64,000 nucleotides of DNA from Solirubrobacter pauli (lineage in GTDB: Bacteria > Actinomycetota > Thermoleophilia > Solirubrobacterales > Solirubrobacteraceae): contig NZ_RBIL01000002.1 of assembly GCF_003633755.1 (NCBI RefSeq), positions 868,001-932,000 of the forward strand, given 5' to 3'. Position 1 is the first letter of the stretch, and each line of letters begins with the position of its first letter. Made by a program: the position numbers and the translations under genes. The notes beneath the pieces were generated by a model. The model searched no databases, was not told the origin of the DNA, and worked only from the letters and a program-made list of their open reading frames with translations. This document shows positions 37,938 to 63,569 of this stretch, piece after piece.

Positions 37938-39146
37938 ATGCGAATCAGCTTTGCCCGAGCTGGTGTCGCAGCGGCGTGCGCGCTGCTGGCGGCGACCATC
38001 TCGCTCACACCCGGGGTGGCCCACGCCGCCGCCGGAGGCACGCTCACGACCGGCACGTACGCGAACGCCGCCGGAGAGCTCAAGTACCAGCTCTTCGTCC
38101 CCTCGAGCTACCAGCCGGGCACGTCCGTCCCGTTGGTCGTCGGACTCCACGGCTGCACCCAGACGTCCGACAAGTTCCGCCTGCTGTCCCGGCTCGACGA
38201 GCTCGCCGCCGAGCGCAACTTCATCGTCGTCTATCCGGAGCAGCCGTCGTCCAGCAACCGGCTGGGCTGCTGGAACTGGTACACGGCCGCGCACGTGAGC
38301 CGCGACGCGGGCGAGCCGTCCCTGATCGCGGGGATCACGAGGACCGTGCAACAGGCCTACGGCGCGGACGCCAAGCGCACGTTCGTCACGGGCCTGTCGG
38401 CCGGTGGGGCGATGGCGACGGTGATGGGCGTGACCTACCCCGACCTGTACGCCGCGGTCGGCGTCGGCTCGGGGTGCGAGTACACGGGCGGTGCCGCGTG
38501 TGCGGGCTACAAGAGCGACGACCCGGAGCTGGCCGGCAAGCGCGCCTACGACGCGATGGGCGCTTACGCGCGCGTGATGCCGTTCATCGTCTTCCAGGGC
38601 GACGAGGACAAGACGGTCCCGCCGGTCAACGCGGACCAGCTCGTGCGCTCGCAGCAGGTCGCGTCCGACTACGCCGACGACGGCAGCAAGAACGGCTCGA
38701 TCCCGCAGAAGGCGGTCAAGACGACCACCGGACGCAAGCAGGGCGGGCGGCAGTACACGACGCGGCTGTACTCCGACGGCAAGGGCCATGAGCTCGGCCA
38801 GTACTGGACCGTGCACGGCATGGCGCACGCCTGGTCGGGTGGCAGCGCGGACCAGCAGTACTCGGACCCCGCGGGCCCGGACGAGAGCGCGGCCATGTAC
38901 GACTTCTTCCTCAAGCATCCGCTCGGCGAGCCTGGTCCGCCGCTGGGCGGTGGCGGCACGACGCCGGGCATCCCGGGCGCCCCTCAGCCGAGCTGGCCGA
39001 TCCCGGAGTGGCCGCCACCCGGAGCTCCCGGCCTGCCTCAGCTGCCCGGGATGCCCGGCCTGCCGCAGCTGCCGGGGATGCCGCAGCTGCCCGGAATGCC
39101 GCAGCTGCCGGGCCTGCCCGGCTGGCCGAAGCCGTCGCGCGGCTGA
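37938..39146 (+). CDS. Secreted PHB-depolymerase-family esterase with Pro/Leu/Gly/Met tail
   Basis: A 402-residue exported alpha/beta-hydrolase. After the signal peptide come the oxyanion region PLVVGLHGCTQ, the lipase box GLSAGG with Ser154, the acidic DEDKTVPPVNADQL block and the catalytic His in WTVHGMAHAWSGG. This places it with PHB depolymerase, feruloyl and acetylxylan esterases of type Esterase_phb. It could act on extracellular polyhydroxybutyrate or on plant esters. The last 75 residues are a Pro-rich tail ending in repeated LPGM/LPGL units. ATG at 37938 is at the signal peptide; no Shine-Dalgarno. Probable control by the divergent PucR. Confidence 0.88.
   Translation: MRISFARAGVAAACALLAATISLTPGVAHAAAGGTLTTGTYANAAGELKYQLFVPSSYQPGTSVPLVVGLHGCTQTSDKFRLLSRLDELAAERNFIVVYPEQPSSSNRLGCWNWYTAAHVSRDAGEPSLIAGITRTVQQAYGADAKRTFVTGLSAGGAMATVMGVTYPDLYAAVGVGSGCEYTGGAACAGYKSDDPELAGKRAYDAMGAYARVMPFIVFQGDEDKTVPPVNADQLVRSQQVASDYADDGSKNGSIPQKAVKTTTGRKQGGRQYTTRLYSDGKGHELGQYWTVHGMAHAWSGGSADQQYSDPAGPDESAAMYDFFLKHPLGEPGPPLGGGGTTPGIPGAPQPSWPIPEWPPPGAPGLPQLPGMPGLPQLPGMPQLPGMPQLPGLPGWPKPSRG
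39061..39130 (+). repeat. Tandem LPGM/LPQLPGM codon repeats in the esterase tail
   Basis: Degenerate 12-21 bp units encode LPQLPGMP, PQLPGMP and PQLPGLPG in a row. The tail is disordered and may span the cell wall or bind polymer. Confidence 0.6.
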
Positions 39147-39305
39147 GGGATCTCCGAAGCGGCTCACCCTCTCAGGGGTACGCGGGCCGGCCAGGTCGCT
39201 GACTGGCCCGCGGACCAGCCCGCATGGGTCCGCCGGGGCATGCTCCGCGCGCGCCTGCTCACGCGAGCATGGACGTTCCTGACTTCGCTGATGAAAGGAT
39301 CTTCC

Positions 39306-39695
39306 ATGCTGTCACGACGAACGCCGCTGCTCGCGGCGCTCGCCACCGGTGCCGCGCTCGCCTCGGCGGCGCCGGCGGCGCACGCGGTGACGATGCCCAA
39401 CCTCAAGCTCGGCGCCCCGGCGAACCTGCAGCTCCCGATCGCCCCGGGCATCGGCGGCATCGGCGGTTACGGCGGCGGCTACGGCGGCCTGACCACCGGC
39501 AAGCTGTGCGGCAACTCGGTCTACCCGGACGCCGCCGGTCCCTCCGGGAGCAACAACCAGACGGTCTGCAACTGGGGCGGCCTGACCTTCGTCGGACCGT
39601 CGACCGCGGTCACCAGCGTGGTCGGGCCGACGATCATCAGCCCGGGCTTCGTGGGCACGATCATCACGAGCTCCGGCAACGTCGGCATCGGCTGA
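39306..39695 (+). CDS. Small secreted Gly-rich protein
   Basis: A 129-residue exported protein: signal peptide PLLAALATGAALASAAPAAHA, a Gly/Tyr-rich stretch (IGGIGGYGGGYGGL), two cysteines (KLCGNS and QTVCNWGG) that could form a disulfide, and a repetitive valine/isoleucine end (VVGPTIISPGFVGTIITSS). ATG at 39306 follows AAAGGA at 6 nt. It is followed 5 bp later by another small secreted gene with a similar 'GPxII' pattern. No known family; structural or surface role inferred only. Confidence 0.7.
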   Translation: MLSRRTPLLAALATGAALASAAPAAHAVTMPNLKLGAPANLQLPIAPGIGGIGGYGGGYGGLTTGKLCGNSVYPDAAGPSGSNNQTVCNWGGLTFVGPSTAVTSVVGPTIISPGFVGTIITSSGNVGIG

Positions 39696-40034: not shown

Positions 40035-40805
40035 TCAGCCGAACGCCAGCACGTCGAGCTTGACGCCGTGGACGGTGTAGTCCTGCCCGGCCTGCGCACA
40101 CGAGTTGGCGAAGCTGGCGGTCACCGTGCGCGGCGTGTCGTTGTCGGGCTCGGACAGCGTCCCGACGACGATCGGCATCGTGATCCGGCCCGCGGGGACG
40201 AGCGGGGCGATGGCGACGGTCGTGGCCTGTCCGTCGACCGAGAAGATCACGTTGTTGCCGAGCGAGCCCGTGCACCCGGAGGGCACGGTCAGGTCGACGC
40301 TGCCGACCACCAGGTTGACCTGCCCGGCGCCCTGCGTCCACGTGGCGCCGGTCAGGGGCACGCTGGTCTGGGCGCCGTTCTTCGCGGTCACCGCACCGGT
40401 GCCCCGCGCGCGCACCGCGACCGACGCGCTGCCGTCGTGGCCCGGGTCGCCCTTGCCGCCGGGGACGCCCTGCACACCCTGCGGGCCGGGCTCGCCCTGC
40501 GGACCCTGGAGGCCGTCGAAGCCGCGGTCGCCGTCGGCGCCGGCAGAGCCGGTGTCGCCCTTGATCCCTTGCAGGAACGTGCCGGCTTTGAAGTCCGACG
40601 CGGTCAAGGAGCCGTTCTTGACGTTCCCGCTGGTGACGCTGTTGGGCGCCAGCTTGGCGTTGGTGACCGCGCGCTTGGCGATCGTGGTCGTCGTCACGCT
40701 GTTGGGCGCGAGGCGCACGGCGGCGTACGAGCTGCCGCCCAGGGCGATGAAGAGCGCGACGTAGCCGACGGCATTGCCGCGCAGATGGGCGGATAAGCGA
40801 TGCAT
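40035..40805 (-). CDS. Collagen-like secreted or membrane-anchored protein
   Basis: A 256-residue protein. An N-terminal hydrophobic anchor (VGYVALFIALGGSSYAAVRL) precedes LAPNSVTTTTIAKRAVT, a segment common in Thermoleophilia. Then come about 15 Gly-X-Y triplets (GIKGDTGSAGADGDRGFDGL, then GPQGEPGPQGVQGVPGGKGD) and a C-terminal beta domain of about 120 residues. The triplets should form a collagen triple helix displaying the C-terminal head outside the cell. ATG at 40805 is preceded by GAGGTC at 7 nt, inside an inverted repeat. Confidence 0.85.
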   Translation of the reverse strand: MHRLSAHLRGNAVGYVALFIALGGSSYAAVRLAPNSVTTTTIAKRAVTNAKLAPNSVTSGNVKNGSLTASDFKAGTFLQGIKGDTGSAGADGDRGFDGLQGPQGEPGPQGVQGVPGGKGDPGHDGSASVAVRARGTGAVTAKNGAQTSVPLTGATWTQGAGQVNLVVGSVDLTVPSGCTGSLGNNVIFSVDGQATTVAIAPLVPAGRITMPIVVGTLSEPDNDTPRTVTASFANSCAQAGQDYTVHGVKLDVLAFG

Positions 40806-40811
40806 GATGCT

Positions 40812-40824
40812 GACCTCTGAGGTC
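40812..40824 (-). promoter_or_regulatory. Inverted repeat covering the ribosome site of the collagen-like gene
   Basis: GACCTC-T-GAGGTC on the plus strand reads GACCTCAGAGGTC on the minus strand. The GAGG of the ribosome site is in the second arm. As RNA it could hide the site; as DNA it could be an operator. Confidence 0.35.
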
Positions 40825-40852
40825 GGGGGCAGAAGTGGGTGAAGCGCGAAAG

Positions 40853-41650
40853 TCAGAGGCGCCGGAAGCGCCACGTGGCGAGCACCGCGGAGACGACCAG
40901 GATCCCCACGGACCACGCGAGCGCCGACGGCACCGCGGCGGTGGTGTCCGCGCCGGAGCTGAGCTCCCGGAGCGCGTCGGCCACCCGCGTGACGGGCTGC
41001 GCCTCCGCGATCGACCGCAGCCAGCCGGGGAACGTCGCCGGCGACGTGAAGATCGACGAGGCGAAGACGAGCGGGAAGGTGACGATGAAGCCGAGCATCG
41101 TCGCGCTCTCCGCGTTGCGCGCGGCGAGGCCGACCAGCGTGAACAGCCACGAGCAGGCGTAGCCGAACAGCAGCGCGACGCCGAGGCCGGCCGCGACCTG
41201 CGCCGGCGTGCCGCCGAAGCGGAAGCCGACCAGCAGGCCGAGGGCGATCAGGATCCCGATCGTGTACGCGAGCCGCAGCAGGTCGGCGAGCGTGCGCGCG
41301 GCGAGGATCGCCGTGCGACTCGTCGGCAGCGCGCGCAGGCGGTCCGTCACCCCCTTCGCGAGGTCCTCGGCGACGCCGACCGCGGAGGATGAGCCGCCGA
41401 ACAGCGACGTCTGGATGATGATCCCCGGGATCAGGTAGTCGACGTAGCTCGGATAGCCCGGTACGTGGATCGAGCCGCCGAACACGTAGCGGAACAGCAG
41501 CACGAACATCACCGGCGTGATCGTCGCGAGCGCCAGCAGCTGCGGCGTGCGCAGCGCCAGCCGCAGGTTGCGGCCCGTGAGCAGCAGCGTGTCGCTGACG
41601 AAGGCGCGCGGCCCACCCGTGCGGGCGCGGATGATCATCGGAGCGCTCAT
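40853..41650 (-). CDS. ABC-2 type exporter permease (DrrB-like)
   Basis: A 265-residue protein with six membrane segments and the ABC-2 signature around GVTDRLRALPTSRTAILAAR. It would form the channel of a drug, lipid or polyketide exporter with the ATPase encoded just upstream (ATGA overlap, 4 bp). DrrB-type permeases export daunorubicin and similar compounds, but the substrate here is unknown. A secreted Thr-rich protein gene comes first in the same operon. Confidence 0.9.
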   Translation of the reverse strand: MSAPMIIRARTGGPRAFVSDTLLLTGRNLRLALRTPQLLALATITPVMFVLLFRYVFGGSIHVPGYPSYVDYLIPGIIIQTSLFGGSSSAVGVAEDLAKGVTDRLRALPTSRTAILAARTLADLLRLAYTIGILIALGLLVGFRFGGTPAQVAAGLGVALLFGYACSWLFTLVGLAARNAESATMLGFIVTFPLVFASSIFTSPATFPGWLRSIAEAQPVTRVADALRELSSGADTTAAVPSALAWSVGILVVSAVLATWRFRRL

Positions 41651-42639
41651 GCGGCCGCCTCGCTCGGCTTGCGGACCGTGTGCACCCACGCGCCGGGGAG
41701 CGCGGCGCCGGTCAAGGTCAGGAACACGTCGTCGAGCGATGGGCCGCGGACCCCGAGGTCGGCCACGGGGATCTCGGCCTCCTCGATCCGCCGGGCGGCG
41801 GCGAGCAGCGTGGTCACGCGCTCGGTCGCCGGCACGGTCACCTTCTGCGCGCGCACGTCGACGACGGGCTTGCCCGGGCCGAGGCCGCGCAGCAGCTTCG
41901 CGAGCCGGTCCAGGTCGGCGGGGCGCGTCGCACGCACCTCCAGCACGTCGGTGCCGACCCGGCGCTTGAGCTCGTCCGGGCGGCCTTCGGCGATCACCGC
42001 GCCGCGCTCGATGATCACGATCCGGTTCGCGAGGCGGTCGGCTTCCTCGAGGTACTGCGTGGTCAGCAGCAGCGTCGTGCCGTCCCGGATCAGGTCCTCG
42101 ATCAGCGTCCACAGCTCGGCCCGCGAGTGCGGGTCGAGGCCCGTGCTCGGCTCGTCCAGGAGCAGGATCGGCGGCCGTCCGGTGAGGCTCGCGCCGAGGT
42201 CGATCCGGCGCCGCATCCCGCCCGAGTAGGTCTTGACCATGCGGTCGGCGGCGTCGGTCAGCCGCAGGCGCTCGAGCACCTCCTCGGCGCGGAGCTTCGC
42301 GGTGCGCCGGTCGAGGCCGTAGAGCCGGCCGACGAGCTCGAGGTTCTCGCGCCCGGTCAGCATCTCGTCGACGGCCGCGAACTGGCCGGCGAGGCCGATC
42401 ACCGAGCGGACGGTGGGGGCGTCGCGGACGGCGTCGATGCCGGCGATCCGGACCGACCCCGCGTCGGGCGCGAGCAGGGTCGAGACGATCCGGACGAACG
42501 TCGTCTTGCCGGCGCCGTTGCGGCCGAGCAGCGACAGCACGGTGCCGGTCTCGACGCTCAGGTCGACGCCGTCGAGGGCCGTCACCGAGCCGAAGGCCTT
42601 CCGAAGCCCTTCGGCGATGATCATGGGGGTGCTGGACAC
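41647..42639 (-). CDS. ABC exporter ATP-binding protein (DrrA-like)
   Basis: A 330-residue ATPase. Walker A LGRNGAGKTT, the Q-loop at GLAGQFAAVDEML, signature YSGGMRRRIDLG, Walker B PILLLDEPSTGLDP and the C-terminal DUF4162-like extension (LEVRATRPADLDRLAKLLRG) match the DrrA subfamily. GTG at 42639 follows AAAGGAG at 5 nt. It is translationally coupled to the permease and probably co-transcribed with the upstream Thr-rich secreted protein (15-bp gap). Likely energises efflux. Confidence 0.92.
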   Translation of the reverse strand: MSSTPMIIAEGLRKAFGSVTALDGVDLSVETGTVLSLLGRNGAGKTTFVRIVSTLLAPDAGSVRIAGIDAVRDAPTVRSVIGLAGQFAAVDEMLTGRENLELVGRLYGLDRRTAKLRAEEVLERLRLTDAADRMVKTYSGGMRRRIDLGASLTGRPPILLLDEPSTGLDPHSRAELWTLIEDLIRDGTTLLLTTQYLEEADRLANRIVIIERGAVIAEGRPDELKRRVGTDVLEVRATRPADLDRLAKLLRGLGPGKPVVDVRAQKVTVPATERVTTLLAAARRIEEAEIPVADLGVRGPSLDDVFLTLTGAALPGAWVHTVRKPSEAAA

Positions 42640-45514: not shown

Positions 45515-46339
45515 TCACATCTCCATGCCGCCGTTGACCGCGATCACCTGGCCGGTGATGTACGCGGACGCGTCCGACACGAGGAACTCGACCGCGCGGG
45601 CGACCTCCTCGGGGCGGCCGAGCCGGTTGAGCGGCACCTGCGCGCGGATGCCGTCGAGGACCTTCCCGGGCACGGTCGCGAGCATGTCGGTCTCGACGAA
45701 GCCGGGGGCCACGGCGTTGACGGTCACGTTGCGCCCGTCGGGGTCGAGCCGCTCCGCGCGCTTGAGCATGAACGCCGCCTCCTTGGCCAGCGACATCGTC
45801 AGCCCGAACAGCCCCGACTTGGACGCGGCGTAGTTCACCTGGCCGACGTTGCCCGTCTGCCCGATGATCGAGGAGATGTTCACGATCCGGCCGGCGGCCT
45901 GCTCGAGCATGTGCGGCAGCGCCGCCTGCGCGGTGAAGAACGCGCCCGACAGGTTGACCGCGAGCACGCGGTGCCAGTCGTCGTCGCTCATCCGGAGCGT
46001 GATCCGGTCGGCGGTGATGCCGGCGTTGTTGACCAGGATGTCGAGGCGCCCGCAGCGGTCGAGCACCTCCTGCACCGAGCGCCGGCACTCGTCGGGCGAG
46101 CTGATGTCGCTGCGGTGGACCGAGATCGGCACCTCGGTCCAGGCGCAGTCGGCCGTGAAGCGGGCCGCGGACGCCTCGTCGTGCGCGAAGCCGGCCACGA
46201 CCGTCGCGCCGCGCGCCGCCAGCCGCCGGCTGATCGCGGCGCCGATGCCGCGGGTCCCGCCGGTGACGAACGCGACGCGCCCGGACAGGTCGTCGTCCAG
46301 CTTCGGCGCGGTCTCGCCGTGGGTCTCGATGATGGCCAT
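45515..46339 (-). CDS. phaB: Acetoacetyl-CoA reductase / 3-oxoacyl reductase (PhaB type)
   Basis: A 274-residue short-chain dehydrogenase. TGGTRGIG is the NADPH motif, NNAG is at LVNNAGITAD, the active site has ISSIIGQ (Ser) and YAASK (Tyr, Lys), and the C-terminus is VNGGMEM. It reduces acetoacetyl-CoA to 3-hydroxybutyryl-CoA, the PHA monomer. The assignment over FabG rests on the phasin gene 5 bp upstream and PhaA and PhaC elsewhere in the window. ATG at 46339 has no Shine-Dalgarno and is probably coupled to the phasin stop. Last gene of the NmrA, regulator, phasin, phaB operon. Confidence 0.88.
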   Translation of the reverse strand: MAIIETHGETAPKLDDDLSGRVAFVTGGTRGIGAAISRRLAARGATVVAGFAHDEASAARFTADCAWTEVPISVHRSDISSPDECRRSVQEVLDRCGRLDILVNNAGITADRITLRMSDDDWHRVLAVNLSGAFFTAQAALPHMLEQAAGRIVNISSIIGQTGNVGQVNYAASKSGLFGLTMSLAKEAAFMLKRAERLDPDGRNVTVNAVAPGFVETDMLATVPGKVLDGIRAQVPLNRLGRPEEVARAVEFLVSDASAYITGQVIAVNGGMEM

Positions 46340-46344
46340 GGCGA

Positions 46345-46614
46345 CTAGGGGGCCAGGACCTGGCGGGCGAACCGGCTGGAGGCGCTGAGCATGTCGCGGG
46401 CGAACGCGGCGCGGGCCCGCAGCAGGCGGCTCATCCACTCGACGTCAGTCGCGTCGGCCAGCTTGTCGTCGGCGTCGGCGAACATCCCGAGCGTCTGCTC
46501 CATGGCGTCGGTGGCCTCGAGCATCGTCTTGCGGCCACTGGCAAGCAGCTCCTCGTGGCCGACGCGGAGCGCCGCCACGATCTTCTCCGGGTCCTGCGTG
46601 AACGTCTCTGGCAT
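46345..46614 (-). CDS. Phasin-like PHA-granule protein
   Basis: An 89-residue helical protein (ALRVGHEELLASGRKTMLEA, then TDVEWMSRLLRARAAFARDM). The 'LxxGxEExxxxxKxxxE...A...ARxxF' layout and length are phasin-like: such proteins coat polyhydroxyalkanoate granules. The 5-bp gap to phaB is the strongest support. A second phasin-like gene lies at 58595-58867 beside PhaC. ATG at 46614 follows GGGAG. Sequence similarity within this family is weak, so context carries much of the call. Confidence 0.78.
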   Translation of the reverse strand: MPETFTQDPEKIVAALRVGHEELLASGRKTMLEATDAMEQTLGMFADADDKLADATDVEWMSRLLRARAAFARDMLSASSRFARQVLAP

Positions 46615-51531: not shown

Positions 51532-51717
51532 TCAGCTCTGCGTCCGGCGGTGGTTGGGCGCTGGGGAGGCCGCCCGGAACCGGCGGGTGGATCCGTCACG
51601 CTGCGCCGCCGCGGGCTGGTGGGCGCGGATCTGCTCCACGGCCATCAGGAACTGCCGGCGCGTCTGGTCGAGATCCGCCTGCGTCGGGGTCACTGCCTTG
51701 TGGGTGCGGTGCGTCAT
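51532..51717 (-). CDS. Small basic protein upstream of the CAP gene
   Basis: A 61-residue protein (MTHRTHKAVTPTQADLDQTR, then RQFLMAVEQIRAHQPAAAQ) rich in Arg and Gln, with no signal peptide. GAGGAGG at 7 nt before the ATG is a strong ribosome site, which supports a real gene. No known family. The exact 13-bp sequence TGGGCCAACGGCC lies 70 bp upstream and recurs upstream of PhaC. Confidence 0.6.
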   Translation of the reverse strand: MTHRTHKAVTPTQADLDQTRRQFLMAVEQIRAHQPAAAQRDGSTRRFRAASPAPNHRRTQS

Positions 51718-53443: not shown

Positions 53444-53581
53444 CCTCGGGTTCCCTCTCCAGCGGACACTGGACCGCAAGGCTGTGCCCGATCGCGCTCG
53501 ACGGCCACTGTCCCGAGGACCGGGTGGACCGCCCGCATGGGACAGCGGCGGGCCGCGCGCGACGCGCTTAGCGTCCCGCGG

Positions 53582-54871
53582 ATGGACCAGCCCGTCATCG
53601 TCAGCGCGCTGCGCACGCCCGTGGGCACCTTCGGCGGCGCCTTCAAAGACATCCCCGCTCCGGCGCTCGCCGCTCACGCGATGCGCGCGGCGCTCGAGCA
53701 GGTCGACCTCCCACCGGACGCCGTCGACGAGGTGCTGCTCGGCTGCGTGCTGCAGGCCGGCCTCGGCCAGAACCCGGCACGTCAGGCCGCGATGGCGGCC
53801 GGCATCCCGCAGGAGGTGCCGGCGACCACGATCAACATGCTCTGCGGCTCGGGCCTGAAGGCCACGGCGCTCGCGGCGCAGATCATCCGCGCGGGCGACG
53901 CCGACGTCGTCGTGGCGGGCGGCATGGAGAACATGTCGCGCGCGCCGTACCTCGCGCCCACCGCGCGCTTCGGCGCGCGCATGGGGGACGCGGTGCTGAT
54001 CGACTCGATGGTCAGCGACGGGCTCACCGACGCGTTCCACGAGGTCCACATGGGCGTGACGGCGGAGAACGTCGCCGACCAGTTCGGGATCACGCGTGAC
54101 GAGCAGGACGCGTTCGCGGCCGGAAGCCAGCGGAAGGCCGAGCAGGCGCTCGCCGAGGGCGTCTTCCGTGACGAGATCGTGCCGATCGAGATCGTCGAGC
54201 GGCACGGCATCCGCGTCGTCGACACCGACGAGGCGCCGCGGCCCGGGACGACGATGGACGTGCTGGCGCGGCTGCGGACCGCGTTCCGCCCCGACGGCGG
54301 GACGGTCACGGCCGGGAACGCGTCGGGCCTCAACGACGGGGCCGCGGTGGTGGTCGTGATGTCGGCGCGCAAGGCGGTCCAGCTCGGCCTCGAGCCGCTG
54401 GGCACGGTCGAGAGCCACGCGTCGGTCGGCGTCGACCCGGCGGTCATGGGCATCGGGCCCGTGCCGGCCGTGCGCATGGCGCTCGCGAAGGCCGGGGTGG
54501 ACCTCGCCGACGTCGACGTGTTCGAGCTCAACGAGGCGTTCGCGGCGCAGTCGCTGGCGGTCATCCGCGAGCTCGGCCTGGACCCGGAGCGGGTCAACCC
54601 GCACGGCGGCGCGATCGCGCTCGGGCACCCGATCGGCGCCAGCGGCGGCCGGATCCTCGTCAGCCTGCTGCACCAGATGCGCCGGACGAACGCCGAGCGC
54701 GGGGTGGCGGCGCTGTGCGTGGGCGGTGGCCAGGGCCAGGCGGCGGTGATCCGCAACGGCGTGCACGCGATCCCGGGGCGGACCGCCGCCGACGCCGCCC
54801 GCCTCCGGCTCGCGGCGCAGCCGGGGTTGGACGTCGGCCGGCCGGCCGTGTCATTGACGGTCGACTCGTGA
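53582..54871 (+). CDS. Acetyl-CoA acetyltransferase (PhaA-type thiolase) with C-terminal extension
   Basis: Condenses two acetyl-CoA to acetoacetyl-CoA, the first step of polyhydroxybutyrate synthesis. Catalytic residues are Cys88 (NMLCGSGL), His349 ([12 protein letters not shown]) and Cys379 (ALCVGGGQG). The usual thiolase end at [10 protein letters not shown] is followed by about 35 extra residues, so the protein has 429 instead of about 393. The other PHA genes are 8 kb upstream and 4-5 kb downstream. ATG at 53582 begins the standard '[11 protein letters not shown]' start. A 39-codon frame overlaps its stop. Confidence 0.93.
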
Positions 54872-55456: not shown

Positions 55457-56179
55457 CTAGGGGCGTGCGGCGTGGGCGATGTAGCCGGCGCCGCCGTAGC
55501 GCTCTTCGACCTCGACGTCGGGGACGAGCTCCGCGAGCCGTTCCCACGGGCACTGGAAGCCCGCGAACGTGCTGACGCAGTCGCGGTTCAGGTGCCAGGT
55601 CGTGCGGTTGAGCCAGAGCGCGCCGAGCCGTTTCCACGGCACCCACTTCGGTCCGCCGGCGGCGATGCGCCCGCCGCTGCGGACGTGCTCGAGGACGTTC
55701 GTGAGCGCGCTCGTCGAGCGCATCACGTCGTGCACGGCGCACAGGATCGCGCCGTCGGCGACGACGGGGATCTCGGCCTCTTCGGCGCCGGCGCAGATCA
55801 GCTCGACGTTGGTCCATCCGCGTCGGCGCACGAGCGCCTCGGCGAGCGTGAGCATCTCCGGGCTCGGCTCGATCCCGATCAAGCGGCCGGTCGGCCCGAT
55901 CCGCTCGCGGATCTGCTCGAAGTTGCGGCCCGTGCCGCAGCCGACGTCGAGGATGACCTCTCCGGGACGCGGTCCGAGGCGTTCGACGAGCTCGCGGCGA
56001 CCGAAGTCGCCACTCGCCGTACGCAGCTCGTAGCTGTGGGCCATCGCGCCGTAGCGGAGCTGTGAGCGCGCGCGGTCGGGCTCGCCGCCGCGCACTGCCT
56101 GGCGGACGGTGAGCGCCGCCGCGATCAACCCTCGCGGGCGTGCGTTGGCCATGTTCGTCAGTAGGTCGTGTAGGTGCAT
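55457..56179 (-). CDS. Class I SAM-dependent methyltransferase (UbiE-like)
   Basis: A 240-residue soluble enzyme. SAM motif I is VILDVGCGTGRNFEQI, then LIGIEPSPEML (motif II region) and AILCAVHDVMRS. N-terminal RYGAMAHSYELRTASG matches the UbiE-type lead-in (quinone or lipid methylases). The substrate is unknown. Two starts are possible: ATG 56179 and, nine codons later, ATG 56152. It is transcribed in the same direction as the Gly-rich gene upstream, with a 110-bp gap. Confidence 0.82.
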   Translation of the reverse strand: MHLHDLLTNMANARPRGLIAAALTVRQAVRGGEPDRARSQLRYGAMAHSYELRTASGDFGRRELVERLGPRPGEVILDVGCGTGRNFEQIRERIGPTGRLIGIEPSPEMLTLAEALVRRRGWTNVELICAGAEEAEIPVVADGAILCAVHDVMRSTSALTNVLEHVRSGGRIAAGGPKWVPWKRLGALWLNRTTWHLNRDCVSTFAGFQCPWERLAELVPDVEVEERYGGAGYIAHAARP

Positions 56180-56289
56180 AAGACTCGTGGCGCCGCGGCG
56201 CGGACCGCTATACGGTCCCGGCCCGCAGGCCCCGCGCCGACTGGCCCAACGGCCGGTCGGCGCTGGCCCGTCCGGGGATCGCCTCGTCG

Positions 56290-58329
56290 TCACGCGCGCG
56301 GCCGCAGCCGTCGCGACACGAGCGCGGGCACCGCCAGCAGCACGAGGAGCGCCGCGATCGCGTAGGGCGCCGCCGACCGCACCTGCTTGGCCGTGGGCTT
56401 CAGGAACGCGAACGGCCCGGTCTCCACCGGCTCCGGCCGCGCCGCCTGGTGCCCCGTCCCGCGAGTGCGCGCGGTCGTGCCGTCGGCGGCCGCGGGCGCG
56501 GCCGCCCCGATCCCGGGCACGACCCGCACCGGGGTCACCGGCCCGACGAATCCATTGACGCCCGAGGAAGGCGCCGGCCCGAACCGACCCGGCCCGACGA
56601 CGCTCACGCCGGGAGTCCGCGCCTGGCCGGAGACGCCCGGCCCGGAAGGCACGGCGGGCCCGTAGATCCCGCTCCCGGGCACGCCGGCGCCGCCACCCGG
56701 AGCCCCGGGCACCGCATCGCCCGGACCGGGCACGACCGGCAGACCCGGAGCCGGCCCACCGCCCGCCGGCCCGTCAGCACCGCCGGACGGCCCACGTCCG
56801 CCACCCGAGGGTCCGCGTCCGCCGCCGGAAGGTCCACGCCCACCGCCCGAGGGCCCGCGCCCGCCGCCAGAAGGCCCGATGATCGGCCCGACGCCGCCAC
56901 CACCAGGCCCGATCGGCCCGCCACTGCCGGGCCGATCCCCGCCCGCGCCGCCGTGCCCGGGCCCGTCGCCGCGTCCGCCGCCGTCGTGGCCACCGCGCCC
57001 GCCACCGGGTCGCTCGCCGCCGTCGTGGCCACCGCGTCCACCGCCGGGCCGGTCGCCGCGTCCGCCGCCGTCGTGGCGACCGCCGCCGCGGCCGGGTCGC
57101 TCGCCGCGTCCGCCGCCGTCGTGGCCGCCGCGCCCGCCGCCCGGCCGGTCGCCGCGTCCGCCGCCGTCGTGGCCGCCGCGTCCGCCGCCGGGCCGGTCGC
57201 CGCGTCCGCCGCCGTCGCGTCCGCCGCGCCCGCCGCCGGGCCGCTCGCCGCGTCCGCCACCGCTGTCGCCAGGCCTGCCGCCTTCGCCGCCGCCGTGGCC
57301 GGGGTTGTCGCCGCGTCCGCCACCGCTGTCGCCAGGCCTGCCGCCTTCGCCGCCGCTGTGGCCGGGGTTGTCGCCGCGTCCGCCACCGCCGGGGCCGTCA
57401 CCACGACCCCCGCCGCCGGGGCCGTCACCACGACCCCCGCCGCCTGGGCCGTCACTGCGCCCGCCGCCGCCGTGGCCAGGGCCGTCACCACGACCCCCGC
57501 CGCCTGGGTTGTCGCCGCGTCCTCCGCCGCCTGGGCCGGCACCGCCGCCTTGTCCGCCGCCTGGGCTCTCGCCGCGACCGCCGCCGCCTGGGCCGGGGCC
57601 ATCGCCGGGGCTCTCGCCGCGACCGCCGCCGGGGTTGTCACCGCGTCCGCCACTGCCAGGGCCCGCGCCGTCACCGCCGGCGGGACCGGAGCCGCCATGG
57701 CCGCCGCGCCCGCCGCCGGGGGCTGCACCGCCGCCATGATCGCCAGGTCCCTCGACGTGGCCGGCGCCGTCGTCGCGTCCGCCGCCCTGGTTGGGGCCGG
57801 ACCCTCCACCGTTGCCGGGGCCGCGGTCGGCAGGGTTGCCGCCGCCGGGGTCGGGCCCTTCACCGCTCCTGGGGCCGCCGCCACCGCCAGGGCCGCCGCC
57901 GCCCGGGCCGGAGCCGCCGTCAGATCCGGCTTGTCCGGCGCTGCGATCAGGGCCGGGGCCACTGCGGCCGCCGCTGTTCCCAGGGCCGCTGTCGCCGCGG
58001 AGGCCGACGCCGCTCTGGCCGGCGCTGTCATCGCGCTCGCCGGCCGGACCCGGGGCGCTCGTGGGCACGTCGTAGGTCGTGCCGCCCGGTGGGGTTGCGG
58101 CGAAGGGGCGGACGGCTTCGACCCCGGGCGGCCCGCCGTTCGCGTCGGGCGCGAGGCGGGCGGCCAGCGGGGGGTTCGGGGTCGTCGTCAGGCCCGGGAA
58201 GCGGGCCTGGTCGGTGGGGACCGTGGGGCGGGCGGCGTGGCCGTCCGTGTCGAGAGTCAGTGCGGCGGCCGCCAGGACGGCGCAGGCCGCGACTCCGGGG
58301 AGGAGCCGATGGGTCGAGACGCGGGGCAT
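56290..58329 (-). CDS. Large Gly/Arg/Asp low-complexity surface protein with many RGD motifs
   Basis: A 679-residue protein. A signal or anchor sequence at the N-terminus and a C-terminal membrane segment with basic tail (APYAIAALLVLLAVPALVSRR, simplified: hydrophobic then RRLRPRA) flank a central region of about 400 residues made almost only of Gly, Arg, Asp, Pro, His and Ser. The repeats vary GGRGDxPGGGRGGHDGG, giving about 20 RGD tripeptides. There is no LPXTG sortase motif. Antisense and shifted frames are also open because the DNA is repetitive, but only this frame has both export signal and anchor. Possible adhesive or hydrophilic wall-spanning protein. Confidence 0.65.
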   Translation of the reverse strand: MPRVSTHRLLPGVAACAVLAAAALTLDTDGHAARPTVPTDQARFPGLTTTPNPPLAARLAPDANGGPPGVEAVRPFAATPPGGTTYDVPTSAPGPAGERDDSAGQSGVGLRGDSGPGNSGGRSGPGPDRSAGQAGSDGGSGPGGGGPGGGGGPRSGEGPDPGGGNPADRGPGNGGGSGPNQGGGRDDGAGHVEGPGDHGGGAAPGGGRGGHGGSGPAGGDGAGPGSGGRGDNPGGGRGESPGDGPGPGGGGRGESPGGGQGGGAGPGGGGRGDNPGGGGRGDGPGHGGGGRSDGPGGGGRGDGPGGGGRGDGPGGGGRGDNPGHSGGEGGRPGDSGGGRGDNPGHGGGEGGRPGDSGGGRGERPGGGRGGRDGGGRGDRPGGGRGGHDGGGRGDRPGGGRGGHDGGGRGERPGRGGGRHDGGGRGDRPGGGRGGHDGGERPGGGRGGHDGGGRGDGPGHGGAGGDRPGSGGPIGPGGGGVGPIIGPSGGGRGPSGGGRGPSGGGRGPSGGGRGPSGGADGPAGGGPAPGLPVVPGPGDAVPGAPGGGAGVPGSGIYGPAVPSGPGVSGQARTPGVSVVGPGRFGPAPSSGVNGFVGPVTPVRVVPGIGAAAPAAADGTTARTRGTGHQAARPEPVETGPFAFLKPTAKQVRSAAPYAIAALLVLLAVPALVSRRLRPRA
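56940..57680 (-). repeat. GC-rich tandem codon repeats encoding GGRGD/GGHDGG units
   Basis: Degenerate 15-39 bp units (GGCGGACGCGGCGA-like on the minus strand) repeated many times. The array is prone to slippage and to assembly error, so its length should be treated with care. Confidence 0.7.
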
Positions 58330-58867: not shown

Positions 58868-58979
58868 GAGGTCCTCCCGTCTTTGAGGCCACCCCCTTGA
58901 CCGAGGTGACCCTGATGGCGCCGAAAGCTAGGACGGTCTCGGCCGCCGGACCACCTCTCGCACCGCCACATCACCCATT

Positions 58980-59032
58980 TGGGCCAACGGCCGCGCGGGG
59001 CGTGGACCCGGCTCCTCGCGCTCGGCTACAAG
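58980..59032 (+). promoter_or_regulatory. TGGGCCAACGGCC element (copy 2) and -10-like TACAAG before phaC
   Basis: The exact 13-mer (58980-58992) is preceded by ACCCATT, part of CCC-ATTT-GGG. TACAAG at 59027-59032 lies 6 nt before the ATG at 59039 and could be a -10 box for a leaderless transcript. An in-frame TTG at 58979 would place the element inside the gene. Confidence 0.4.
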
Positions 59033-59038
59033 CCGGGC

Positions 59039-60622
59039 ATGCTCGCTCCTCTCGCCGATCTCGTGGCCCCGCGGCGGCTCGTCACCGAATCGATGCGCGC
59101 GACCGGCGAGCTGGCCCGGATCGCGATCGGCCGCTCCGACGTCGCGCCCGCACCCACCGACCGCCGCTTCGACGATCCCGCCTGGACGCTGAACCCGGTG
59201 TACCGCCGCTGGGCGCAGACCTACCTGACGTACAGCGGCGTCCTCGACCGGCTCGCGGAAGCGCCCCGCCACCAGGGCGACTGGCGCCGCGCCGAGCGCG
59301 CCCGCTTCGTCGCGAAGCTGCTGGCCGACGCCACCGCGCCGACGAACACGCTCGCCGGCAACCCGGCTGCGCTCAAGCACGCGTTCGACACCGGCGGGGT
59401 GAGCTTGCTGCGCGGCGCGCGCAACGCCACCCGTGACGTCGTCCGCAACCACGGCCTGCCCAAGCAGGTCGACCGCCGGCCGTACGTCGTCGGCGAGAAC
59501 CTGGCGGCCACGCCCGGTGCCGTCGTCTACCGCGACGACGTCTTCGAGCTCGTCCAGTACGCGCCGTCCAGCGCCTCGGTGCAGACGCTGCCCGTCCTGA
59601 TGATCCCGCCGCAGGTCAACAAGCACTACTTCCTCGACCTCGCGCCCGGCCGGAGCATGGTCGAGTACCTCGTCGCCCGCGGCCTGCAGTACTTCACGGT
59701 CGTCTGGCGCAACCCGACGCAGGCCGACGGCGGCCGCTCGATCGACGACTACGTCGCGGCGCAGCTGCGCGCGGTCGACGTCGTCCTCGAGATCACCGGT
59801 GCCGAGTCGCTCAACCTGATCGGCGTCTGCGCCGGCGGCCTGACGACCGGCCTGATGCTCGGCCACCTCGCCGCGACCGGCCAGGCGGAGCAGGTGACCT
59901 CCGCGACGTTCGCGATCAGCATGATCGACACGCGGCACCCCAACCCGATGGGCATGCTCGCCACCGGCGACGTGCTGCGCGACGTGGCGCGCGACGCGGA
60001 CGCCCGCGCCGTCTACGACCGCCGTCGGATCGGCCGCGCGTTCGCGTGGCTGCGGCCCGACGACCTCGTCTTCAACTACGTCGTCAACGACTGGCTGATG
60101 GGCAAGGACGCGCCCGCGTTCGACATCCTCGCGTGGAACGACGACGGCTCGGACCTGCCCTCGCGCTTCTTCAGCGAGCTGCTCGACCTGTACGTCCACA
60201 ACCACGCCGCCCAGCCCGGGCGCGTGGACGTGCTCGACGTCCCGGTCGACCTGCGGTCCGTCACCTGCGACAGCTTCGTCGTCTCCGGCATGCGCGACCA
60301 CATCACGCCGTGGGACTGCGGCTACGAGACCGCCCGGCTGCTCGGCGGCCGCAGCGAGGTCGTCGTCACGACGACCGGTCACATCCAGACGATGGTCAAC
60401 CCGCCCGGCAAGCCGCGGGCGCGCTACTTCGCCGGCCCTGAGCCGGGCCCCGAGCCGCAGCAGTGGCTCGACGCGGCGACCGAACACGAAGGCTCGTGGT
60501 GGCCGCGCTATGCGGACTGGCTGCTCCATCGCTCCGGCGAGGGTCGTGCGGCTCCGGGGCGGCTCGGCAGCCGCCGCCACCGGGTGTTGGACCCGGCGCC
60601 CGGTCGCTACGTGCACGGCTGA
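59039..60622 (+). CDS. phaC: Polyhydroxyalkanoate synthase (PhaC, class I/II-like)
   Basis: Polymerises 3-hydroxyacyl-CoA into PHA on the granule surface. The 527-residue protein has the PhaC_N region (DRRFDDPAWTLNPVYRRWAQ), the lipase-like box GVCAGG with nucleophile Cys264, Asp420 in SGMRDHITPW and His448 in TTGHIQ. PPQVNKHYFLDLAPGRSMVE and YFTVVWRNPT are PhaC hallmarks. No phaE or phaR is nearby, so a single-subunit synthase. ATG at 59039 is chosen over TTG 58979 because of the upstream element. It ends 4 bp from a convergent small gene. Confidence 0.93.
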   Translation: MLAPLADLVAPRRLVTESMRATGELARIAIGRSDVAPAPTDRRFDDPAWTLNPVYRRWAQTYLTYSGVLDRLAEAPRHQGDWRRAERARFVAKLLADATAPTNTLAGNPAALKHAFDTGGVSLLRGARNATRDVVRNHGLPKQVDRRPYVVGENLAATPGAVVYRDDVFELVQYAPSSASVQTLPVLMIPPQVNKHYFLDLAPGRSMVEYLVARGLQYFTVVWRNPTQADGGRSIDDYVAAQLRAVDVVLEITGAESLNLIGVCAGGLTTGLMLGHLAATGQAEQVTSATFAISMIDTRHPNPMGMLATGDVLRDVARDADARAVYDRRRIGRAFAWLRPDDLVFNYVVNDWLMGKDAPAFDILAWNDDGSDLPSRFFSELLDLYVHNHAAQPGRVDVLDVPVDLRSVTCDSFVVSGMRDHITPWDCGYETARLLGGRSEVVVTTTGHIQTMVNPPGKPRARYFAGPEPGPEPQQWLDAATEHEGSWWPRYADWLLHRSGEGRAAPGRLGSRRHRVLDPAPGRYVHG

Positions 60623-61068: not shown

Positions 61069-61395
61069 ATGCATCGACCGACGCGCATCGCGACGCTGGT
61101 AGGCGTCGCCGTGACGCTCACCGCGGCCGCGCCCGCCGCTGCCGACGCCGCCTCGGCGTCCACGCCACGTTCCTCGGACCAGGTGTGCCTGTCCGGGGTC
61201 CTGGACCTCGGCCCGTTCGGCCCGTACGGACCGTACGGCGCCAGCGGGCCCTACGGCCCCAACGGCCCGCTGCACGACCGGCCGAACCCGATCGGCGACG
61301 CCGCCCAGTGCGGCGGCCTGATCACGTTCATCCTGCGCGGCGGCACGCTCGACTCGTTCATCCAGGCGAACATCGACTCGGCGAAGCCGCGCTGA
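61069..61395 (+). CDS. Small secreted protein with GPYG repeats
   Basis: A 108-residue exported protein: signal peptide IATLVGVAVTLTAAAPAAADA, then GPFGPYGPYGASGPYGPNGP, a Pro/Gly/Tyr repeat, and a C-terminal segment GGLITFILRGGTLDSFIQAN. Two cysteines flank the repeat (DQVCLSG and AAQCGG). AAGGAG at 9 nt before ATG 61069 supports the start. No known family; a wall or matrix protein is possible. A perfect 32-bp palindrome follows. Confidence 0.65.
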   Translation: MHRPTRIATLVGVAVTLTAAAPAAADAASASTPRSSDQVCLSGVLDLGPFGPYGPYGASGPYGPNGPLHDRPNPIGDAAQCGGLITFILRGGTLDSFIQANIDSAKPR

Positions 61396-61437: not shown

Positions 61438-61698
61438 TCAAGGCCGGCTCGCCGGCAACGGGAGGATCACCGGCGCAGGACCGCCGCCCGCACACGCGGG
61501 TTCAGGTCGGCAGCCCGGCCACGGCCCGCCGAACTCCGGCGCGGCGCCTGAGCTGGGGGCCTCCCGGCAGACCACGGACAGGCCGAGGATCGCGGCCGCG
61601 CTCAGCAACGCGGCCGACGCGACCGCGAGCAGGCGCGCCGAGCGCGCCGGCGCGGAGGCGGAGCGCTCGGCCCCGTCCTCCGCGGGCGCTTCGCTCAC
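61438..61698 (-). CDS. Small single-pass membrane protein
   Basis: An 86-residue protein with a charged N-terminus (MSEAPAEDGAERS), one membrane helix (LLAVASAALLSAAAILGLSV) and a Pro/Gly-rich outer part with two cysteines. Its ATG overlaps the stop of the upstream WQAG-repeat gene by 4 bp (ATGA), so the two are translationally coupled. No known family. It may anchor or partner the repeat protein. Confidence 0.55.
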   Translation of the reverse strand: MSEAPAEDGAERSASAPARSARLLAVASAALLSAAAILGLSVVCREAPSSGAAPEFGGPWPGCRPEPACAGGGPAPVILPLPASRP

Positions 61699-62066
61699 CG
61701 CGGCGGCGCGAACGCGCCTTGGAACCCGGTGAACGCGGCCTGCCAGCCACTGCGCGCGGCCGCCGCGCCGGCCTGCCAGCCGCTCTGGGCGGCGGCGGCG
61801 CCGGCCTGCCAGCCGCTCCGCGCGGCGTCCGCACCGGCCTGCCAGCCGGCGAGGCCCGCCTGCCAGCCGGCGAGCCCGGCGTCCCAGCCGGTCTGCGCGG
61901 CGGCGATGCCGGCCTGCCAGCCGTCGATCGCGGCGGCCGTGCCGGCCGCCTGCGCGGGCGGGGGCGTCGCCGGCGGCGCGGCGGCGTGCGCCCCGGCCAC
62001 CGGTCCGGCGGCGGCGATCGCGCCGGCCAAGGCCGTCAGGGTCACGACCCGCTTGAGCGTGGACAT
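61695..62066 (-). CDS. Secreted Trp-containing 7/11-residue repeat protein
   Basis: A 123-residue exported protein: signal peptide (VVTLTALAGAIAAAGPVAGAHA), a Pro/Ala linker, then seven consecutive GW(Q/D)A-headed units alternating 11 and 7 residues (GWQAGIAAAQT, GWDAGLA, GWQAGLA, GWQAGADAARS, GWQAGAAAAQS, GWQAGAAAARS, GWQAAFTGFQG). Such spacing gives an amphipathic helix with Trp along one face, as in lipid-surface proteins. ATG at 62066 follows AAAGGAG at 8 nt. Function unknown; it shares an operon with the membrane protein downstream. Confidence 0.7.
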   Translation of the reverse strand: MSTLKRVVTLTALAGAIAAAGPVAGAHAAAPPATPPPAQAAGTAAAIDGWQAGIAAAQTGWDAGLAGWQAGLAGWQAGADAARSGWQAGAAAAQSGWQAGAAAARSGWQAAFTGFQGAFAPPR

Positions 62067-62193: not shown

Positions 62194-63486
62194 TTAGCCC
62201 TCATCGGTGGGCCAGGCGAGCACGCCGCGGAACAGCGCCAGGAACTGCTCGGCCGCGGTGCGGTCGAACTCGGCGTGGCGGTAGCGCAGCGTCAGGTGCA
62301 TGCGGCCGCCGTGCGTGAGCACGCCGAGGGCCGCGCCGAGCGGCATCCGGCCGGGGGGCGAGAAGCGGACCGCCTGCACGGCACCGGGCAGTGGCGGCAG
62401 CGTCCCGAGGTTCGACAAGCTCGCCGTGTCGACCACGACGTCGCCCGTCAGCGGGATCAGGTCGACGAGCCGGTGCTTGGTGGCGATCGTCGAGAGGCTC
62501 GGGCCGGCGAGCAGGTCGACGACCACGCCCGCCAGCCCGTGGCGCTTGATCTCGCTCGTCTGCGCCGCGACCGCTTCGGCGGTGGCGCGGACGCCGTGCG
62601 GCGCGATCGGCATGACGATGCTCACGTAGGAGGCGAAGTTGCCGACGACCTCGTCCCGCCACGCCGGCGGCCGCAGGTTGACCGGCATCGTGAGCGTGAT
62701 CGGCCACGCCCGGCGCCCGTGTGCGACGTTCCAGCGCCGCGCCGTCACCGCCAGCGCGGCGAGCAGGACGTCGTTGACCGTGGCGCCCTCGGGCCGGGCG
62801 CGCACGAGCGCGTCGGTCTCCGCGGCGGTCAGCGCCGTGTGCGCGACCCCGTACCCCGGCCGGTCCTCGCCCCCGGAGCGCGCGAGCCGGGCCGGTGGCA
62901 CCGCGGTTGCGGCGGCGTGGCGCAGGATCGCCCCGCGGCGCAGATGCCGGTCCGCGGGCGTCTTGGCTCCTGCGAGCTGCGTCACGTCGCGCACGGCGAG
63001 CGGGTCCAGCAGCGGTGCGGGATCGGTCTCGCCCGCGTACGCGAGCAGGATCGAGCGCATCAACCGCGCCGCGGCGATCCCGTCGCCGGCCGCATGGTGG
63101 AGGTTCAGGACCAGCGCGTCGCCGTCCGGGCCGTGCGCGAGGAGGACCGCGAACGGCGGTGCGGTCGTGAGGATGGGGGAGCGGCCCAGCAGCGCTTCGC
63201 GCGCCGCGTCGACGTCGGCCTCGGTCGCGCACTCGGCGACGGTCAGCGGGACGGCGGGCGACTCCGCGATCCGCCAGTGGTAGCGACGGTCGTAGGGGCG
63301 GGCGTCGGCGAGGGAAGCTCGGGCGATCGGGTTCCGGCGCATGGCGGCCGCGATTGCGCTCGCGAGCCGGTCGGCGTCGAGGCGCTCGCTGAGCAGAGCC
63401 TCGAAGTGGACGTTCCATGGCTCGGCGTCCCGATCCAGGACGAGGAAGTGCTCGTCGAGTCGATCCAGCGGAACGGTGTTGGCCAT
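62194..63486 (-). CDS. WS/DGAT-like or condensation-domain acyltransferase
   Basis: A 430-residue protein of the acyl-CoA acyltransferase/condensation superfamily. The N-terminal PLDRLDEHFLVLDRDAEPWN matches the PLDxxFLxLE lead of wax-ester synthase/diacylglycerol acyltransferases, and the active site HHAAGDG (130-136, HHxxxDG) is intact. TVNDVLLAALAVTARRW and SNLGTLPPLPG are further blocks. It may make triacylglycerols, wax esters or an acylated polyketide. It is a lone gene; ATG 63486 is preferred (in-frame ATG at 63513 is possible). Confidence 0.8.
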   Translation of the reverse strand: MANTVPLDRLDEHFLVLDRDAEPWNVHFEALLSERLDADRLASAIAAAMRRNPIARASLADARPYDRRYHWRIAESPAVPLTVAECATEADVDAAREALLGRSPILTTAPPFAVLLAHGPDGDALVLNLHHAAGDGIAAARLMRSILLAYAGETDPAPLLDPLAVRDVTQLAGAKTPADRHLRRGAILRHAAATAVPPARLARSGGEDRPGYGVAHTALTAAETDALVRARPEGATVNDVLLAALAVTARRWNVAHGRRAWPITLTMPVNLRPPAWRDEVVGNFASYVSIVMPIAPHGVRATAEAVAAQTSEIKRHGLAGVVVDLLAGPSLSTIATKHRLVDLIPLTGDVVVDTASLSNLGTLPPLPGAVQAVRFSPPGRMPLGAALGVLTHGGRMHLTLRYRHAEFDRTAAEQFLALFRGVLAWPTDEG

Positions 63487-63569
63487 GGATCCAGCGTGTA
63501 CGGCGTCCGGCACGAGACGCTGGACCAGAGGGCCCGCCGGCGCCGTCCGTGGGGCCGGGACCGATCACG

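Follow-up and report, generated by a model that had tools for sequence, protein, structure and literature searches.

A gene in the window (the whole stretch of 64,000 nucleotides of Solirubrobacter pauli DNA that was analysed) encodes a small GW-repeat protein with a predicted export signal (Table 1). Gene context suggests, at a rough probability of 0.45, that this protein leaves the cytoplasm and, as an amphipathic helix, coats a hydrophobic surface of polyester or lipid across the membrane, with phasin-like physics though not itself a phasin. The main clue to the protein was the conserved island of PHA and lipid genes in which its gene lies.

Table 1. Positions in the window of the GW-repeat gene, its neighbours and the PHA/lipid island genes.
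Feature	Position	Strand	Remarks
GW-repeat exported protein	61695..62066	-	123 aa; putative signal peptide ~residues 1-28; predicted helix 37-118; GW units from residue 49
Repeat tract GW(Q/D)AG...	61710..61922	-	spacing 11,7,7,11,11,11; closed by W-x6-F-x3-F
86-aa ORF, one hydrophobic stretch	61438..61698	-	GTG start overlaps GW stop; doubtful gene
Phasin-like helical protein, 90 aa	58595..58867	-	G002 orthologue matches Phasin_2 weakly, E 0.05
PHA synthase (PhaC)	58979..60622	+	PF07167 E 5.7e-51; TIGR01839/TIGR01838
Small exported GPxGPYG protein	61069..61395	+	conserved in islands
PapA/condensation/wax-synthase-like acyltransferase	62194..63513	-	conserved island gene
Exported PHB-depolymerase-type esterase	37938..39146	+	PF10503 E 5.8e-25; signal peptide read from sequence
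DrrA/DrrB-type ABC exporter	40853..42639	-	ATPase 41647-42639, membrane part below; G009 orthologue TIGR01188 drrA E 2.8e-104
SDR reductase	45515..46438	-	72% identity to G002 acetoacetyl-CoA-reductase-like protein
Thiolase (PhaA-like)	53567..54799	+	boundaries from homology; 74% identity to G002 thiolase region

The GW-repeat gene is real. Its start was preceded by a clear and strong Shine-Dalgarno sequence (AAAGGAGA), and the protein began with MSTLKRVVTLTALAGAIAAAGPVAGAHA-A... and continued with seven GW units, starting at residues 49, 60, 67, 74, 85, 96 and 107. The seven units of 11 and 7 residues described in the first-pass annotation were thus confirmed, and their spacing was beyond that of shuffled sequences: seven GWxA units in 7- or 11-residue steps were observed, and when the mature part was shuffled 100,000 times with its composition preserved, the longest chain had three. 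The putative signal peptide was of the Sec type and ended in AHA, and a signal peptide with an A-x-A site was read from the sequence in all six members of the family, in agreement with the export that had been proposed. Cysteine was absent throughout the protein, and the lipobox cysteine of LppX-type lipoproteins was therefore without a match.

AlphaFold2 predicted one continuous helix for the window protein, with pLDDT >90 in the middle, to be read with the caution that an Ala-rich sequence is easily modelled as helix. Plotted at 100 degrees per residue, the Trp/Phe ladder fell on a single face (mean resultant 0.92), since steps of 7 and 11 place all aromatics on one face of a helix. This one-face ladder and the predicted helix support the earlier description of an amphipathic repeat with one Trp per unit. 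The ladder was significant in the window, G002, G009 and the distant MAG relative BP_133 (p < 0.002), and weak or degraded in G158 (p = 0.5). Rungs of aromatic residues or Met at exact 11-residue steps numbered five in G002, five in G009 and six in BP_133, and an aromatic cap closed the ladder. One helix was predicted for BP_133 too, with lower confidence (pLDDT ~70-75). Except for the G158 ladder, a hydrophobic residue recurred in an 11- (or 7-) residue register on the predicted helix, as in hendecad amphipathic helices. The mean hydrophobic moment of the GW protein was moderate, which counts against the surface-coating reading.

Synuclein and perilipin are lipid-binding helices with 11-residue repeats. 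The GW protein would resemble them in an 11/3-type helix whose lipid-like face stays in register, and differs from them in lacking a KTKEGV-type motif, in its Ala/Gly/Trp composition and in being bacterial and putatively exported; homology is not claimed.

Comparisons among three middle units gave pS of 0.37-0.54 vs. pN of 0.06-0.08, and comparisons with the first unit were less clear (pN 0.12-0.22). Because the middle units differed mainly at synonymous sites, purifying selection appears to keep the repeat, which would not be a fresh duplication. The ladder was also retained across genera at ~40-45% identity. Both results argue against a low-complexity repeat of little function, grown by GC-rich tandem duplication; such a repeat would agree with the variable repeat number, the Ala/Gly-rich composition and the rarity of the family, and is improbable.

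Clear members of the GW family were found in a genome of the same genus (G002) and in two genomes of other genera of the same family (G009 and G158), and further members on the Actinomycetota MAG contigs JAUZEY010000226.1 and JAUZEX010000407.1. The window genome and G002, G009 and G158 all come from soil actinobacteria. The unit G-W-x-A-G-A-x-A-x-x-G was common to all members, and the number of units differed. The first-pass annotation had tied its reading to export and to conservation of repeat number and phase among relatives; the signal peptide was recognised in all relatives and the 11-residue phase in most, but the repeat number varied. An antifreeze-like reading, taken from Thr every 11 residues in a MAG relative, was rejected, the window protein being without that Thr.

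Genomes sampled across the order, the class and the phylum yielded no GW members beyond those of the four genomes; because the number of first-look candidates scored in each genome was limited, the rarity of the family may be somewhat overstated. A tblastn search of plasmids gave no match. The Pfam, NCBIfam and PHROGs profile libraries gave nothing above chance (no Pfam family at E up to 1, phasin models included), and a PDB sequence search gave chance matches only (E ~0.4-0.6), which were rejected, a short stretch of pleurotolysin B among them. Weak search matches L006-L011 had E of 0.002-0.01, and the weak matches L004, L005, L012, L017, L018 and L020-L024 were rejected as signal peptide only or frame noise. 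The literature searched for an exported phasin or a GW-type repeat yielded none. The initial impression that the protein belongs to no known family held in the libraries and in the PDB. The GW family is real and rare, and the libraries searched contain no description of it.

The GW protein had also been proposed to be made together with a small membrane protein encoded by the next ORF. The 4-nt overlap of that ORF's GTG with the GW stop (GTGA) was verified, but an obligate pair was unsupported, because the 86-aa ORF was not preceded by a Shine-Dalgarno sequence, matched no family in the profile libraries searched and had only one marginal, chance-level match in nine related genomes (E 0.009), and because a Lipase_2 gene occupies the place downstream of the GW gene in the nearest relative, G002. 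The 86-aa membrane protein is doubtful as a gene. Its doubtful status, together with the lack of a recognisable immunity gene, also argues against a secreted, bacteriocin-like peptide that would disturb the membranes of other cells; the predicted Trp-rich, amphipathic exported helix would suit such a peptide, but the sequence has few charges and no cationic face, and this explanation is very improbable.

Compared among the window, G002 and G009, the island was loosely conserved and patchy, and extended over several tens of kilobases. Common to the three were the acyltransferase, at 56-59% identity, a DrrA-type ATPase and the membrane protein that partners it (reciprocal best matches between window and G009, DNA match in G002), an NmrA-like protein, pyruvate kinase, the collagen-like and GPxGPYG exported proteins and a LuxR-type regulator. 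All three islands had a PHA synthase; those of the window and G002 are of the PhaC_N type, and that of G009 is of class III. The window and G002 shared the phasin-like gene, the thiolase (the G002 protein of this region resembles acetyl-CoA C-acetyltransferase), the acetoacetyl-CoA-reductase-like SDR and the exported PHB-type esterase, and G002 and G009 shared Lipase_2, a CoA transferase and an alpha/beta hydrolase. With G002, the phasin-like, GW, Lipase_2 and PHB esterase genes formed a same-strand run. In G158, much of the island was on contig C42. Its GW gene lay on C397, with a further copy of the alpha/beta hydrolase and a methyltransferase as neighbours, the latter sharing 69% identity with the one at 55457-56293 of the window. 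No tRNA insertion site was found in the island regions of G002 and G009.

Several small families accompanied the island. The GPxGPYG proteins (L065:3430-3759, G009 C303:17825-18430 and G158 C42:10544-10969 besides the window copy) had a GPxGPYGxxGPYGxNGP motif, ended in a conserved CGG...F-LRGGT tail and travelled with the island. The collagen-like G-x-y exported protein occurred in all four islands (window 40035-41150 (-), G002 C1 ~232621-233484, G009 C303:17070-17891 and G158 C42:11767-12600). A Gly-rich, GGGGRGD-type low-complexity protein (window 56290-58329 (-)), with a putative signal peptide and a C-terminal hydrophobic segment, had a Gly-rich counterpart in the G002 island (C1 ~249364-250644), and a small exported protein whose tail is of the VGPTIISPGFVGTIITSSGNVGIG type (window 39240-39695 (+)) had a relative at G002 C1 ~230863-231321. 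Tiny proteins of 60-70 aa with a D-L-D-x-T-R type motif were found at G002 C1 ~276768-276983, G009 C303:18631-18828 and window 51532-51717 (-), the window copy being matched by eye.

An envelope spacer or self-assembling coiled coil, in which Ala/Gly-rich hendecad helices would pack through the Trp face into a cell-wall rod or fibre unrelated to lipid, is consistent with the hendecad and heptad spacing, the continuous predicted helix and the other exported low-complexity proteins of the islands (collagen-like and GPxGPYG). The neighbours of the GW gene, however, were mostly lipid and polyester enzymes, and a structural role of this kind is possible though unlikely.

The acyltransferase was present in 5 of 146 family genomes (G000, G002, G009, G028 and G158). 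Four of these five also had the GW protein, which was absent from the remaining 141 (Fisher p = 2.8e-7, ignoring kinship, with two of the four GW genomes belonging to one genus). The fifth, G028, is an assembly of 75% completeness in which the acyltransferase gene lies on an 8-kb contig. PhaC_N was present in 23 of the 146 genomes, with the GW protein in 2 and absent in 21. The GW gene was linked to a PHA synthase gene in G000, G002 and G009; at the MAG loci, on short contigs, the neighbours were amino-acid-transporter-like and LuxR-type regulator genes, and no PHA genes were seen. The link of GW to PHA was thus weaker than that to the acyltransferase, both for the 21 PhaC_N genomes without GW and for the MAG loci without PHA genes. 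In five of the seven genomes of the genus, the GW protein, the phasin-like protein and the acyltransferase were all missing (one of these genomes, G005, does have PhaC), and the phasin-like 90-aa protein was found within the genus only in the two GW-bearing genomes. A new family of exported, amphipathic Trp-ladder helices encoded in PHA islands, which would coat polyester or lipid outside the cytoplasm ('exophasin'), is a tentative proposal, doubtful at present.

Phasins are cytoplasmic coats of PHA granules. The export signal of the GW protein fits ordinary granule coating poorly, because PHA granules are cytoplasmic. Phasins bind PHA through amphipathic helices (PMC5658603), and the GW protein is likewise small and predicted to be amphipathic and alpha-helical; its gene has phaC close by in the window and G002 and shares the island with a class III phaC in G009. 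Together, the PHA synthase, the phasin-like protein and the PHB-type esterase of the island recall the storage and breakdown of polyester. It differs from phasins (PF09361, PF05597, PF09602, PF09650) in its hendecad Trp repeat and in the signal peptide conserved among GW members, which would place it outside the cytoplasm, and a separate phasin-like gene stands beside the GW gene. A true PHA granule protein, related to phasins and anchored to the granule by its N-terminus instead of being exported, would agree with the helical nature of phasins and with the phasin-like genes and phaC that adjoin the GW gene in two genomes, but is quite improbable given the canonical signal peptide, with A-x-A in all six members, and the lack of a phasin Pfam match. 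The GW protein would work like an amphipathic surface-binding helix; having an export signal and no Pfam match, it is not a phasin by membership. The phasin-like proteins of 89-90 aa (the window copy, L065:6687-6956 (-) and L065:19022-19291 (-)) are possibly a new phasin branch.

In mycobacteria, a single path of lipid synthesis and export involves PapA5, DrrABC and the lipoprotein LppX (PMC11237470). The GW island similarly unites a PapA-like acyltransferase, a DrrAB-type exporter and a putatively exported accessory protein. It differs in that no polyketide synthase was noticed among the shared island genes and in that it also carries PHA genes; LppX is a lipoprotein, whereas the GW protein is predicted to be a single helix without a lipobox.

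Adsorption to a surface outside the cytoplasmic membrane best fits the combination of an export signal, an amphipathic Trp-ladder helix and lipid and polyester enzymes as neighbours. The GW protein would leave the cytoplasm by the Sec route, and its mature part would be one long amphipathic alpha-helix, an Ala/Gly-rich rod with a Trp/Phe/Met ladder recurring every 11 (sometimes 7) residues along one face. The Trp face would adsorb to a hydrophobic lipid or polyester, for which candidates include a product of the acyltransferase that the DrrAB exporter would carry out and a polyester that the exported esterase and lipase would attack. Once bound, the GW protein may stabilise or present that surface.

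The 'exophasin' proposal, if true, implies that a hydrophobic polymer or lipid is exported by these actinobacteria or handled at the cell surface. An exported phasin-like helix whose gene accompanies those for a PHA synthase, a PHB-type esterase, a lipase and PapA/DrrAB-like acyl-lipid export would indicate an unrecognised surface lipid or polyester system, and the GW unit would be a short repeat, open to design, for attachment to hydrophobic surfaces.
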